This document shows, piece by piece, positions 45,829 to 52,289 of a stretch of DNA of 64,000 bases. Where the stretch lies: contig NZ_CP040671.1 of assembly GCF_008386235.1 (NCBI RefSeq), forward strand, positions 496,001 to 560,000, given 5' to 3'. How positions within the stretch are numbered: position 1 is the first letter of the stretch; each line of letters opens with the position of its first letter. The position numbers and the translations under genes were made by a program. This DNA is from Thermosynechococcus sp. CL-1. GTDB lineage: Bacteria; Cyanobacteriota; Cyanobacteriia; Thermosynechococcales; Thermosynechococcaceae. The notes beneath the pieces are model-generated. The model had not been told where the DNA came from, searched no databases, and saw only the letters and a list, made by a program, of their open reading frames with translations.

Positions 45829-48800
45829 GTGCTGGGATTCTTTCCCAGCCGAACTAATGGAAATGATTTACCATAGAAAAACCATGCAGGTGTGCGACGT
45901 GCTGGGATTCTTTCCCAGCCGAACTAATGGAAACCCTCTACCTCTGCCTCTACTGCCTCTGCCTCTACCGTGCTGGGATTCTTTCCCAGCCGAACTAATG
46001 GAAACGTCGCGAACTTTGCTATCAGTATGGCTGCCTTCTAGTGCTGGGATTCTTTCCCAGCCGAACTAATGGAAACGATTAGGGTAATAATAAAATATTG
46101 GGCGTAAATTAAGGTGCTGGGATTCTTTCCCAGCCGAACTAATGGAAACACCTAGCATAACGTTAAACTCCTAAACTCCAGTGTGCTGGGATTCTTTCCC
46201 AGCCGAACTAATGGAAACTGCGTGGGAAAAGCGATTTTTTCTTCCTGCGCGGAAGTGCTGGGATTCTTTCCCAGCCGAACTAATGGAAACGGTTGGGAAG
46301 GCAATTTTTTCTTCGCTTGCGGCGTGCTGGGATTCTTTCCCAGCCGAACTAATGGAAACGGGAGAATGCCGAAGTGGAGCATTTGGGTTACCGCTAGTGC
46401 TGGGATTCTTTCCCAGCCGAACTAATGGAAACATCTGCGGGGGTAACGTGGGTCTGTTTAGCCGAAATGTGCTGGGATTCTTTCCCAGCCGAACTAATGG
46501 AAACTCTTTTGCATCCTCTGAAGATTCAATCTGAGGATGTGCTGGGATTCTTTCCCAGCCGAACTAATGGAAACGCGCTGTAGCTGCTTTAGTTTTGTTT
46601 GCGGGTTTTGCCGTGCTGGGATTCTTTCCCAGCCGAACTAATGGAAACCCCCTAGAAGGCTCAGGAAGGTGGGTCAAAATCGTTTCAAGTGCTGGGATTC
46701 TTTCCCAGCCGAACTAATGGAAACTCGTTTAGTACTGGAACTGTTCTAAACAACGCCAAGTGCTGGGATTCTTTCCCAGCCGAACTAATGGAAACGCTAA
46801 ACTCGATGGGAGTATAGAATACCTGATATTGTGCTGGGATTCTTTCCCAGCCGAACTAATGGAAACCTTAGAAGAGCTAGAAAACTGTTTGAGAATGCCC
46901 AAGTGCTGGGATTCTTTCCCAGCCGAACTAATGGAAACCAGCGGGGACGGGCAAGGACGGCAAAGGCGGAGCGGTGCTGGGATTCTTTCCCAGCCGAACT
47001 AATGGAAACCTTCAATTGCTTTTAGATTTTCATTCAGATAAATGTGCTGGGATTCTTTCCCAGCCGAACTAATGGAAACTAATAAAACTCTAAATTAAGG
47101 TTGATTGTATCTCCGTGCTGGGATTCTTTCCCAGCCGAACTAATGGAAACTTCGATAAGCCAAGACTGCTTAACCCCAGTCTTAAGGGAGTGCTGGGATT
47201 CTTTCCCAGCCGAACTAATGGAAACTACTAAACTCTGCAAGTAACAAATTAGCAAGAGTGCTGGGATTCTTTCCCAGCCGAACTAATGGAAACAAACCCC
47301 CTTAAAAACATCATTGTTTTTCTTGCTTTGTGCTGGGATTCTTTCCCAGCCGAACTAATGGAAACGTCTTAAAATCTGCCACAAGATTATAAACGCCATA
47401 AGTGCTGGGATTCTTTCCCAGCCGAACTAATGGAAACGAGCCGCGTTTAGTTCATCAAAAAAGATTAAGCAAGGGTGCTGGGATTCTTTCCCAGCCGAAC
47501 TAATGGAAACTCTTTCTTGGAAATTATTAAAGGCACACAAAAAACAGTGCTGGGATTCTTTCCCAGCCGAACTAATGGAAACTTTTGGCTTCATCGAAGC
47601 CGAAGTCTCTTGCAAGTGCTGGGATTCTTTCCCAGCCGAACTAATGGAAACACAAGGCGCGAAACAACGTTTCTTCAACCCCCTGTGCTGGGATTCTTTC
47701 CCAGCCGAACTAATGGAAACCAGGCAATTGCTCAACTGGTGGTTCAAATTGCATTTATTGTGCTGGGATTCTTTCCCAGCCGAACTAATGGAAACAGCCT
47801 ATCGCCAATCCTTTTTGCGCGAGCCAATCGGTGCTGGGATTCTTTCCCAGCCGAACTAATGGAAACGCTAATTCAATAGGGGGCAATGAGCGAGGAATCG
47901 TGCTGGGATTCTTTCCCAGCCGAACTAATGGAAACTAAAAGGCCTGAGATAACTCAGTCCCCTATCCAGACGTGCTGGGATTCTTTCCCAGCCGAACTAA
48001 TGGAAACTATTGGTTACTGCCATTAATTTATCTAGCATAATGTGCTGGGATTCTTTCCCAGCCGAACTAATGGAAACTTCTCTTGATTCAAGTCGTTTGT
48101 TACCCTATGTATCAGTGCTGGGATTCTTTCCCAGCCGAACTAATGGAAACTTAAAGGAAAATTTGGAATAGACAACCTGACGGAAGTGTGCTGGGATTCT
48201 TTCCCAGCCGAACTAATGGAAACATCTGTCTTAAATCGAAATGAAGGAGGTAGATTGTGCTGGGATTCTTTCCCAGCCGAACTAATGGAAACTTCTCTTG
48301 ATTCAAGTCGTTTGTTACCCTATGTATCAGTGCTGGGATTCTTTCCCAGCCGAACTAATGGAAACTTAAAGGAAAATTTGGAATAGACAACCTGACGGAA
48401 GTGTGCTGGGATTCTTTCCCAGCCGAACTAATGGAAACATCTGTCTTAAATCGAAATGAAGGAGGTAGATTGTGCTGGGATTCTTTCCCAGCCGAACTAA
48501 TGGAAACAATTTGAACCTGAAATAATTCCAAAAGTAGCCGCTTCGTGCTGGGATTCTTTCCCAGCCGAACTAATGGAAACTTCCCTTCTCAAGGAACGTG
48601 TAAATTTCTGAGTGGGTGCTGGGATTCTTTCCCAGCCGAACTAATGGAAACATCTGTCTTAAATCGAAATGAAGGAGGTAGATTGTGCTGGGATTCTTTC
48701 CCAGCCGAACTAATGGAAACAGATGCCTGCGTTCTGTCTGTTACTCGTGCAATTGGTGCTGGGATTCTTTCCCAGCCGAACTAATGGAAACTCTAGAGAC

Positions 48801-49620: not shown

Positions 49621-49632
49621 GTGTCAAAATTG

Positions 49633-49668
49633 GGGTTAAGTCCTGTACCCAGCGGAGTCAACGGAAAC
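49633..49668 (+). repeat. decayed terminal CRISPR repeat
   Basis: The last 21 bases (49648-49668, CCCAGCGGAGTC then AACGGAAAC) match the repeat 3' half at 16 of 21 positions, including CCCAGC and GGAAAC. The 5' half is barely recognisable. A degenerate repeat is normal at the leader-distal end and supports the left-to-right array orientation. It ends 9 bases before the ATG of the oxidoreductase, so it now serves as its 5' leader. Confidence 0.65.
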
Positions 49669-49677
49669 GCAGCAACA

Positions 49678-50691
49678 ATGAAAGCCGTTGCCATCACAGA
49701 GTTTGGCGAACCCGATGTTTTAGTGCTGCGGGAGATGCCTGAGCCGCAGATTCAAGCTGCCAATGAGGTGAAAATTCAACTGCGGGCGGCCAGTGTGAAC
49801 CCCATTGATACGAAGCTGCGACAGCGGGGAACATTTTTTCCCGATCGCCGGCCCGCCATTCTCGGCTGTGATGGGGCAGGGGTGGTCGTGGCTGTGGGTG
49901 CAGCGGTGCAGCGGTTTCGCGTAGGGGATGAAGTTTATTTTTGCTATGGGGGCTTGGGCGATCGCGGCGGCTGCTATGCCGAATACACCGTTGTTCCTGA
50001 AGTTGCCGTTGCCCACAAGCCCAAAACCCTTTCGTTTATTCAGGCGGCTGCCTTGCCCCTAGCGGTGATTACGGCTTGGGAAGCCTTGGGCGATCGCGGG
50101 GCAGTGCCACCTTTGAATGTCCTCTCCACCGCAAAAACCGTTCTCATCCATGCCGGGGCGGGCGGCGTGGGGCATCTCGCCATTCAACTGGCGCGGCGAT
50201 CGGGGGCAACAGTTGCCACAACGATTAGTTCCGCAGCCAAAGCCCGTTTTGCTGAACGTCTCGGAGCCACCCTTGCCATTAACTACACCACCAGTGATTG
50301 GGTACAGGCAGTCTTGGACTGGACAGGGGGCAAAGGAGTTGATTTTGCTCTTGACACCGTCGGCAGCACAACCTTTAGTGAAACCTTCAAAGCGGTGCGT
50401 CCCTATGGCACCCTCGCCACCCTCTTGGAACCCGCCGCCGATACGCCGTGGAAAATTGCCCGCCAACGCAACCTCTTGATCCAACTCACACTGATGCTGA
50501 CGCCGCAACTCATGGGGTTGAGTGATGCCCTTGCCCATCAGGGAAAAATCCTTGAGCAGGTGGCCACCCTTGTGGATCGCGGCGAACTAGAGGTTGTTGT
50601 CGATAAAACCTTTCCCCTCGGTGCAGCGGCGGATGCCCATCGCTATCTCAGCCAACGCTTGGTGCAGGGTAAGGTGGTACTCGTCCCATAA
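49678..50691 (+). CDS. zinc-independent alcohol dehydrogenase / quinone oxidoreductase family
   Basis: A 337-residue MDR enzyme. The N-terminal GroES-like domain starts MKAVAITEFGEPDVLVLREM with SVNPIDTKLRQRG and the conserved GCDGAGVV. The nucleotide-binding domain has VLIHAGAGGVGHLAIQLARRSGA, and FALDTVGSTTFSE. The zinc ligands of alcohol dehydrogenases are absent, as in zeta-crystallin-like quinone oxidoreductases (NADPH-dependent). The open frame begins at 49621 inside the IS remnant; homology starts at 49678. Substrate unknown. Confidence 0.9.
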   Translation: MKAVAITEFGEPDVLVLREMPEPQIQAANEVKIQLRAASVNPIDTKLRQRGTFFPDRRPAILGCDGAGVVVAVGAAVQRFRVGDEVYFCYGGLGDRGGCYAEYTVVPEVAVAHKPKTLSFIQAAALPLAVITAWEALGDRGAVPPLNVLSTAKTVLIHAGAGGVGHLAIQLARRSGATVATTISSAAKARFAERLGATLAINYTTSDWVQAVLDWTGGKGVDFALDTVGSTTFSETFKAVRPYGTLATLLEPAADTPWKIARQRNLLIQLTLMLTPQLMGLSDALAHQGKILEQVATLVDRGELEVVVDKTFPLGAAADAHRYLSQRLVQGKVVLVP

Positions 50692-50705: not shown

Positions 50706-51062
50706 ATGGTTGCTCAGATTCTTGCCGCCCTTCTCATCGGGCTAGAACAGGCTCAAGGGGTGCCGACATGGCTCAGTCAAACGCCCCACAGTGATGTTTA
50801 TCGGGTTTGCCGCATTTTTAACGGACGCCTTAGCTATTGTGGCCGGTGGTTCACAGGGGAAACGGTGCTGTTGCAGAACAACCTCTATCGCACCTGCCGC
50901 ATCTTTAATGGGCGCCTCAGTTATTGTGGCCGGTGGTTCACAGGGGAAACGGTGCTGTTGCAGAACAACCTCTATCGCACCTGCCGCATTTTTAATGGGC
51001 GCCTCAGTTACTGTGGTTGGTGGTTCACGGGGGAAGCAGTACTGTCGGAGCCTCGACGCTAA
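50706..51062 (+). CDS. small exported protein of three 29-residue Cys-containing repeats
   Basis: A 118-residue protein. A short hydrophobic N-terminus (ILAALLIGLEQAQG) resembles a signal peptide. Then three tandem units start at C35, C64 and C93, each of the pattern CRIFNGRLSYCGRWFTGE..LLQNNLYRT, with a Cys pair ten residues apart (C-x9-C) and a conserved W-F-T-G. At the DNA level the period is exactly 87 bases (50808, 50895, 50982) and copies 1-2 are nearly identical, so the expansion is recent. It lies 14 bases after the oxidoreductase gene. No family was recognised; the paired cysteines suggest intra-repeat disulfides. Confidence 0.75.
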   Translation: MVAQILAALLIGLEQAQGVPTWLSQTPHSDVYRVCRIFNGRLSYCGRWFTGETVLLQNNLYRTCRIFNGRLSYCGRWFTGETVLLQNNLYRTCRIFNGRLSYCGWWFTGEAVLSEPRR

Positions 51063-51063
51063 T

Positions 51064-52215
51064 TTATTCTGGCTGCGAGGAGGGATACAATTCTGGTGGC
51101 ATTGGCTCCGGTTGCAGGCTCACGGTTTGCCGGCGATCGCCCCGTTGAATCTCTAAGGTAATGGTCTGCCCTAGCTTTGTTTGCTCAACCACGCTTTGTA
51201 CCTGTTGGGGGCTGGGTTGATTGACATCGTTAATTTTGGCAATCCAATCTCCCACTTGCAGCCCCGCTTTAGCCGCCGGCGAATTGGGGGCAACACCAAC
51301 GATTAGCGTCCCTTGGGTTTGATTCAGTGTCCAGTTGGGCTGATCTTGACGGATTTGGGCAGCCACTTCTGGCGTCAATTGCACCATGCGAATCCCCAGA
51401 TAGAGGTGCTGGGCGCGCCCCGTAGTAATAATCTGTTCAGCAATGCGATAGGCCGTATTAATGGGAATGGCAAAACCAAGACCCTGCGCTTGGGAAATCA
51501 CGGCGGTATTGACGCCCACCACTTGACCAGCAGCATTCAGGAGGGGGCCCCCGGAATTGCCCGGATTAATCGCCGCATCCGTTTGAATGAAGCTCACCCG
51601 CTTATCGGCAGCGCCAATTTCATTACTGGCACGCCCCGTTGCACTAATAATGCCGGCGGTTACGGTGTTACTTAGCCCCAAGGGGTTACCGATGGCGATC
51701 GCCCACTCGCCCGGGACAAGGGTATCGGAATTGCCCAGTTGTACCGTCGGTAAATTCTCAGCCTCAATCTGCACCACCGCCACATCCGTCAGGGAATCAG
51801 CACCCACCACCTTGCCGTCATATTGGCGACCATCGGGGAGCGTGACTCGCACGGCAGTAGCCCCCTCCACCACATGGGCATTGGTCATAATCTTGCCATC
51901 GGGGGTAAATATAAACCCAGAGCCTTGACCTTGGCGCAGCGGCACATCTGGTATTGGAAAAGGATTGAGAAAACTATCCTCTTGACTGCGGCGCAGGCGT
52001 AGGGTATCAATGCTCACCACTGCTGGCCCTGCCTCAGCAACCACCTTGGCAATGAAATTCTCCCCCGCATTGGGTCGCTCCGTGGGGGCAAGGGGAGGCA
52101 AAGATGCCCCCGTATTAGGGGTGGGGGAGTTGCGATCGGGCAAACGCAATGGACAGCCCGTCAGTGCCACAAGGGCGATCGCCATCCCAACGCAACTCAA
52201 CCGTGTGCGAACCAT
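51064..52215 (-). CDS. HtrA-type serine protease, predicted lipoprotein
   Basis: A Deg/HtrA periplasmic protease. From ATG 52215 it has 383 residues. The signal peptide ends in a lipobox (VALTGC, Cys21), so it should be membrane-tethered. The protease domain carries His114 (TNAHVVEG), Asp144 (LTDVAVVQ) and Ser221 (NPGNSGGPLL). A single PDZ domain follows at about residues 265-370 (GTLIVGVAPNSPAAKAGLQVGDWI). This is the architecture of cyanobacterial HhoA/HhoB/HtrA, and which paralogue it is cannot be fixed. It converges on the repeat-protein gene, 1 base apart. Confidence 0.93.
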   Translation of the reverse strand: MVRTRLSCVGMAIALVALTGCPLRLPDRNSPTPNTGASLPPLAPTERPNAGENFIAKVVAEAGPAVVSIDTLRLRRSQEDSFLNPFPIPDVPLRQGQGSGFIFTPDGKIMTNAHVVEGATAVRVTLPDGRQYDGKVVGADSLTDVAVVQIEAENLPTVQLGNSDTLVPGEWAIAIGNPLGLSNTVTAGIISATGRASNEIGAADKRVSFIQTDAAINPGNSGGPLLNAAGQVVGVNTAVISQAQGLGFAIPINTAYRIAEQIITTGRAQHLYLGIRMVQLTPEVAAQIRQDQPNWTLNQTQGTLIVGVAPNSPAAKAGLQVGDWIAKINDVNQPSPQQVQSVVEQTKLGQTITLEIQRGDRRQTVSLQPEPMPPELYPSSQPE

Positions 52216-52289
52216 ACTCAACTCAACTCGGCAGCAGATCCACTCTAGCCTTATCCTGAAAATAGTGAGTTTGTCGAACCTCTGCTGGC

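Follow-up and report, generated by a model that had tools for sequence, protein, structure and literature searches.

What does a thermophilic cyanobacterium do with a small protein made of three alike, cysteine-paired units, and to which family does this protein belong? The question is raised by a short chromosomal gene of Thermosynechococcus sp. CL-1, whose 118-residue product is called P0001 in the following. The gene lies in a stretch of 64,000 nucleotides that was analysed as a whole (the window), and its surroundings comprise the following features:

49621..50691, forward strand: upstream gene, which we take to be quinone-oxidoreductase-like, ending 14 nt before the repeat gene
50706..51062, forward strand: repeat-protein gene encoding P0001, 118 codons plus stop, with its ATG at 50706
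50706..50798, forward strand: N-terminal segment of 31 codons, hydrophobic and signal-like; relatives have classical signal peptides
50799..50885, forward strand: repeat unit 1, 29 codons, starting at Y32
50835..50902, forward strand: 68-nt block with a perfect recurrence 87 nt downstream (50922-50989), a recent local homogenisation
50886..50972, forward strand: repeat unit 2, 29 codons, starting at Y61
50973..51059, forward strand: repeat unit 3, 29 codons, the last five divergent, starting at Y90
51064..52221, reverse strand: convergent gene, one base from the repeat-gene stop, presumably encoding an HtrA/Deg-type protease (a name taken from a preliminary description of this DNA)

In all three units of P0001 the pattern Y-x-x-C-x9-C is followed by W-F-T-G after the second cysteine. 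The preliminary description was exact in the coordinates and frame of the gene, its three 87-base units and the C-x9-C modules, and Tandem Repeats Finder assigns to the gene a period of 87 with 2.6 copies, 92% matches and a score of 393. A DNA pattern of two consecutive units matches the window twice, both times within the repeat gene, and never in 100 dinucleotide shuffles; the source genome contains a single copy of the gene. The W-F-T-G is invariant across the units of P0001, as had been described, but not in the family, whose members share Y, C, G, C, [FY], G as a conserved core.

Units 1 and 2 share 89.7% DNA identity over 87 nt. The differences are clustered within the first 36 nt, after which comes the 68-nt perfect match at offset 87, a pattern which argues that the near-identity is a local and recent event, caused by gene conversion or unequal exchange. 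The earlier view of a recent expansion or gene conversion thus stands for the homogenised 68 nt, but not for the three-unit state itself, which is old. As an alternative to a selected protein, the gene could be drifting fast and nearly neutrally, with repeats arising from slippage and with little function in this organism, and the one-unit or broken remnants in 7 of the 11 genomes of the genus would be in line with this. The substitution pattern speaks against it. Between the window gene (genome G000) and its nearest intact orthologue (G007), dN is 0.060 and dS 0.523 for the entire gene, and 0.022 and 0.552 for the unit cores, corresponding to dN/dS values of about 0.1 and 0.04, and the cores of G003 and G010 differ with dN 0.032 and dS 1.07; the check on coding constraint proposed in the preliminary description therefore yields a purifying pattern. 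The units within one protein also differ chiefly at silent sites (dN 0-0.19, dS up to 1.5, for the 10 of 11 genes with computable dS; one unit pair is zero for both). Units 1 and 2 of a gene on a Zymomonas plasmid (L002:3152) show dN 0 and dS 0.73, and in some Zymomonas genes the units are protein-identical although dS reaches 0.5-0.7, so that gene conversion alone does not explain their sameness. These comparisons indicate that the repeat gene is a real gene, selected as a protein, and that purifying selection keeps its units alike. Neutral drift is largely refuted by the dN/dS values and the silent divergence of the units, and we regard it as very unlikely. In the proteins of Rahnella prophages and of the phage contig L035 the units have diverged from one another; sameness is therefore not required everywhere.

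Homologues in the same frame are present among related genomes, of which 12 out of 58 were matched at E 0.01; the match in G056 (27% identity, five stops) was dropped as a chance match, as was G006:C18 (31%, two stops). Within the genus, 10 of 11 genomes gave a match, and in the eleventh, G002, a degenerate remnant occupies the corresponding position next to the same oxidoreductase gene. The count of repeat numbers across strains that had been suggested at the outset gives an intact three-unit gene in four genomes of the genus (G000, G007, G003, G010) and about one unit in the other seven. Reading the single defects of these copies by eye, we found an intact one-unit gene in G001, a changed stop after which the frame runs on in G008, internal stops in G009 and G006, a missing first cysteine in G004, and copies that are out of frame in G005 and G002. 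As the intact three-unit form is kept in only 4 of the 11 genomes, the gene is dispensable in the genus. A sister genus (G012) has a three-unit copy at another place, beside a gene that is presumably dnaE-like. When 386 cyanobacterial genomes were searched with a profile, credible matches were restricted to G000, G008 and G012, a result that under-counts degraded copies, since the known remnants of G004 and G005 were missed; a fourth, weak and interrupted match in G273 (E 0.007, internal stop) was dropped as a chance match.

Three units are found not only in the window gene but also in G003, G010, the sister genus, Zymomonas, L035 and Rahnella-type prophages, and must for that reason be the old state. 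The label of a recently expanded protein, under which the locus was first described, has consequently to be given up, as the relatives show contraction to one unit instead. In trees of two neighbour genes the one-unit genomes fall in several branches, some forks being weakly supported, and this scatter suggests that the contraction has probably occurred more than once. Re-expansion from one unit would be more parsimonious on these weakly forked trees, yet we rejected it by inference from the linker between units: the linker LWHNNS of G007 resembles the linkers IWANNA and LWHQNA of G003 and the sister genus, while the one-unit genes have none.

No recognisable prophage is found near the cyanobacterial copies, and the neighbours of the window copy are ordinary chromosomal genes. 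In each of the 11 genomes of the genus an orthologue of the upstream oxidoreductase-like gene adjoins the locus, and no match to it was obtained in the sister genus at E 1e-60; the true start of this gene is probably about 17 codons downstream. The adjacent HtrA gene had been put forward as a clue to function. Of the 11 genomes of the genus, 9 have it within the stretch that was examined, but it is missing from the regions covered in G003 and G010 (14 kb) and in the sister genus (17 kb), and the annotations next to the phage members described below list no HtrA/Deg protease. Being convergent and part of an unconserved neighbourhood, it gives no functional clue.

The family extends far beyond cyanobacteria. 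P0001 shares the profile of PHROG 13161, a phage protein cluster for which neither function nor structure is given (E 6.2e-23, residues 24-115 on positions 15-106 of 108), and this profile matches all 12 rows of our alignment A1 as well as the L035 protein (E 1.4e-18). The window copy is chromosomal and differs in this from the cluster, which is virus-encoded, as are the members from Zymomonas, L035 and Rahnella-type prophages. When 72,556 plasmid records were searched by tblastn, P0001 gave 11 matches and the sister-genus protein 12, on Zymomonas plasmids. There, phage-plasmids carry about eight to nine paralogues in tandem, adjoining P2-type tail genes on the opposite strand; eight genes per plasmid were found by pattern, and a ninth, unannotated, on pZM36. 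The authors of the pZM36 study class 27 of its 47 genes as phage-related (PMC5930841). The 25 Zymomonas genes captured by a regular expression, with one further paralogue outside the pattern, contain three units in 20 cases, two in 2, one in 3 and more than three in none. On pZM36 (L002) the DNA identity of units averages 0.91 within a gene; between paralogues the best-matching pair of units has 0.64, and close paralogues reach at most 0.94.

Some details of these arrays deserve mention. The ninth, unannotated paralogue of pZM36 (L002:2176-2505) has a slightly longer unit (CEGxPFxG), and the central conserved glycine is lost in its units 2 and 3. Orthologous genes vary in unit number between the arrays of L018, L002 and L025 (two versus three, one versus three), which offers a natural series for probing what unit number does. 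A plasmid of Z. mobilis subsp. pomaceae carries a single, unannotated three-unit member (L019:5953-6258), with no annotated tail genes in the stretch shown.

A search of viral contigs returned no relative of P0001 itself, and the two-unit DNA pattern led in viral contigs to a third group, on the phage contig L035, where the gene adjoins endolysin, holin and Rz-like spanin genes. With the L035 protein as query Rahnella plasmid prophages were found, and a Rahnella query in turn gave 17 viral contigs. In 19 of the 20 Rahnella-type contigs compared with L040 the gene is on the plus strand and at least one lysis gene on the minus strand (the exception is L047), and 13 of the 20 have a match to the antitermination gene; these contigs are not independent, because many are near-identical. 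A search of E. coli genomes with the L035 DNA yielded no match. Matches in Pasteurella and Brevundimonas phages (E 0.7) and the cysteine-rich contigs L042-L044, which were picked up by a three-unit DNA pattern, were dropped as chance.

Since such repeats could resemble each other merely through their cysteines and glycines, permuted units served as control. P0001 and the L035 protein align with a score of 166, which none of 500 permutations reached with Y, C, G, C, F and G fixed. Under this strictest control, two Zymomonas proteins were likewise reached by 0 of 500 and a third by 1 of 500, and on these grounds the likeness of P0001 to L035 and Zymomonas exceeds the shared cysteines and glycines. 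The likeness to two Rahnella proteins (4 of 500 each) and to Z. pomaceae (7 of 500) appears weaker, but is still rare in the controls.

The position of the phage members resembles that of the moron or lysogenic-conversion genes of lambdoid phages, for which HK97 gp15 is an example; the likeness is one of gene layout, not of sequence. A single gene on the opposite strand near the lysis genes of a prophage is found in L035, L039-L041 and most of L045-L061, and the window copy does not fit this layout. Of promoter-like sites, L035 has four (one of them, matching in 10 of 12 positions, before the gene) against 1.7 in shuffles, and L040 three against 2.5, hardly in excess. Outside cyanobacteria, the family is borne by temperate phages, probably as accessory, moron-type cargo, and the window copy would be a domesticated chromosomal relative of such phage genes; indeed, the hot-spring cyanobacterial branch looks like a domesticated and partly decaying one.

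The N-terminus of P0001 fits an exported protein only in part. It is hydrophobic, which agrees with the signal-like N-terminus noted before, but it has no K or R ahead of the hydrophobic stretch and no AxA-type site; among the four intact copies of the genus, only G010 has such a site, one weak AxA. Members from the sister genus and from proteobacteria, however, show the classical signal-peptide pattern, and because of these clear signal peptides in relatives the extracytoplasmic location first proposed appears likely and P0001 is probably exported.

The structure prediction that had been suggested for P0001 gave nine strands. AlphaFold2, run on P0001 with 10 sequences, placed residues 30-116 mostly above pLDDT 90 (pTM 0.65), and the mature L035 protein with 14 sequences returned the same nine strands (mean pLDDT 93.5, pTM 0.76), the two runs not being fully independent, as their alignments share most rows. 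The protein is accordingly predicted to be all-beta, with three antiparallel strands per 29-residue unit, and the cysteine pair of every unit lies around an invariant glycine. AlphaFold2 is described as confidently predicting unrealistic beta structures for perfect repeats (PMC11795689); the diverged units of L035 lessen this worry without removing it. Disulphides within the units are conceivable from the conserved cysteine pairs, but an idealised register with two-residue turns suggests that within a unit the cysteines face opposite sides, unlike in a simple hairpin disulphide.

The protein had been introduced as a paired-cysteine repeat without a described fold, and the comparisons agree with this: P0001 has no match above the curated cut-offs of Pfam and NCBIfam and no relative in a PDB sequence search. 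NCBIfam listed argininosuccinate synthase for P0001 (E 8e-4), which is far below the cut-off and was rejected, and nothing for four other members; PADLOC had no match for four members. Four unit-shuffled artificial controls reached E 1.3e-6 and 1.5e-5 with unrelated Pfam families, so that single Pfam matches on these repeats are unreliable. The zf-C3Hc3H lead was discounted after these controls, and zf-RING_13 (sister-genus protein, E 2.4e-8) was set aside because it is a zinc-finger model on a signal-peptide protein, even if it scores better than the best control. Designed Pizza propellers, matched in a PDB profile search at E 0.0014 through many sub-significant pieces, were taken as repeat artefacts. 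Foldseek searches of the PDB and of viral models gave no match below E 0.29, and none of the PDB chains aligned to the two models (989 and 759) reached Z>=2.

It could be argued that P0001 is a short or degenerate beta/gamma-crystallin and acts as a crystallin domain. The [FY]-C-x3-[FY]-x-G-x4-L of the unit resembles the crystallin signature, a local likeness that is found in the Zymomonas paralogues, and one Zymomonas protein passes the PF00030 cut-off (E 2.2e-7), with five others scoring beneath it. The family is, however, not listed for P0001 (E up to 10), L035 or either Rahnella protein, and one of the four shuffled controls lists it too (E 0.033). Unit length and strand count also differ: a Greek-key motif comprises about 40 residues, for which a three-strand unit of 29 residues is too short. 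No crystallin is among the best 50 matches listed in either PDB fold search, and we consider this identity highly improbable. MORN repeats are similar to P0001 as extended beta-hairpin repeats, and chains with MORN repeats come up repeatedly among the weak matches of the fold searches, but these are not significant (best TM 0.32), and MORN units comprise about 23 residues without a cysteine pair, compared with 29 in P0001; Pfam did not list the family for any protein scanned. Pairs of fibronectin type I modules recur in the same way as small cysteine-rich beta modules, but with E 0.6 or worse, and their module length and cysteine pattern differ. DUF3011, raised as a lead for C-x9-C, had no Pfam match for any protein scanned. 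A bolder reading, which we rate as a long shot, is that of a new beta-repeat architecture that is complete with three identical units, where the phage paralogues form a repertoire of threefold binders of which the cyanobacterial family has captured one. That no aligned solved chain resembles the model argues for a new architecture, and completeness at three is suggested by units that drop to two or one and never exceed three, together with the selection for sameness seen in the silent divergence. The targets would then be threefold as well, such as porin trimers or tail spikes.

Taken for itself, the statement that P0001 is an exported beta-repeat protein of a phage-accessory family is probably right. 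Its role is more difficult to assess. An exported three-unit protein would show the same surface three times and could bind an envelope target multivalently, paralogue-specific surfaces being directed to different targets. As a rule, an exported protein that a phage encodes outside its lytic programme benefits the lysogen, and an envelope protein expressed in the lysogen may block a rival phage or its receptor, that is, act in superinfection exclusion. We tentatively prefer this multivalent envelope binder of the phage-accessory kind, directed against competing phages, as the best overall explanation, at somewhat less than even chance; exclusion as the role, judged by itself, is rather doubtful. 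Against this explanation speak the missing PADLOC matches, the lack of a cyanobacterial prophage and of a relative of P0001 itself in the viral contigs, the dispensability in the genus, the weak signal peptide of P0001, the opposite-facing cysteines and the AlphaFold2 caveat.

The lysogenic-conversion cargo might instead benefit the host without being directed against phages, as an envelope protein for surface or glycan binding or for metal or redox handling, with an envelope task in the cyanobacteria. The strong constraint on the intact cyanobacterial copies without a nearby prophage agrees with this, and a pattern of conserved aromatic and glycine residues interspersed with variable positions fits ligand binding. 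The diversity of the Zymomonas paralogues, seen in their unit DNA, is a further point in favour. That 7 of the 11 genomes of the genus show a contracted, lost or decaying gene speaks against a steady envelope role, and a plasmid-free Zymomonas strain without the array is reported to grow like its parent at different temperatures (PMC9816438). We give this host-benefit role a limited chance.

A protein that inhibits or modulates a cell-wall enzyme in the periplasm, and which would guard the lysogen from a lytic enzyme of a rival phage, bacterium or host, or in another form delay lysis by its own phage, is unlikely in both forms together. The Rahnella-type and L035 genes do adjoin holin, lysozyme and Rz genes, in several contigs between these and the antitermination gene, and known lysozyme inhibitors include small exported, cysteine-paired beta proteins of similar size; PliC-St even takes the sixth rank in one Foldseek search, though with E 1.2 and TM 0.18-0.24, which is noise. 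Yet the repeat gene runs opposite to the lysis genes and hence lies outside the late operon, its neighbours are tail genes in Zymomonas and neither kind in cyanobacteria, and neither sequence nor fold connects the protein with an inhibitor family.

Through this gene, an uncharacterised phage cluster becomes tied to a conserved, selected protein of thermophilic cyanobacteria, and PHROG 13161 gains a build (a signal peptide and three alike cysteine-paired units) and a phage-accessory context. The about eight to nine paralogues of the Zymomonas array form a natural panel with a common scaffold and different surfaces. If the members do exclude phages, they would be a new kind of envelope-level defence, and should the fold prove as unusual as the lack of structure matches suggests, a solved structure would reveal a new small beta-repeat.

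Proteogenomics of Zymomonas points to the expression of a probable family member, as peptides are reported from a pZM36 gene not annotated before, pZM36x049, with similarity to WP_012954675.1 (PMC7566282). WP_012954675.1 corresponds to L077:3336-3662, a perfect 3 x 29 member of the family. The frame L002:3152-3475 of pZM36 (to 3478 with stop) is 96% identical to it and unannotated in the record table, and is very probably pZM36x049, judging from this identity. The open-licence literature on pZM36, PHROG 13161, Rahnella and Zymomonas prophages, morons and superinfection exclusion, as far as its available parts go, contains no description of the repeat family.

The window also contains a CRISPR-like array from 45828 to about 49570, with at least 52 repeats of about 36 nt (GTGCTGGGATTCTTTCCCAGCCGAACTAATGGAAAC) at a spacing of about 71 nt, which ends a short distance upstream of the oxidoreductase gene. 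Within the array, 215 nt are perfectly duplicated in tandem (48041-48255 = 48256-48470), so that three repeat-spacer steps have been copied.
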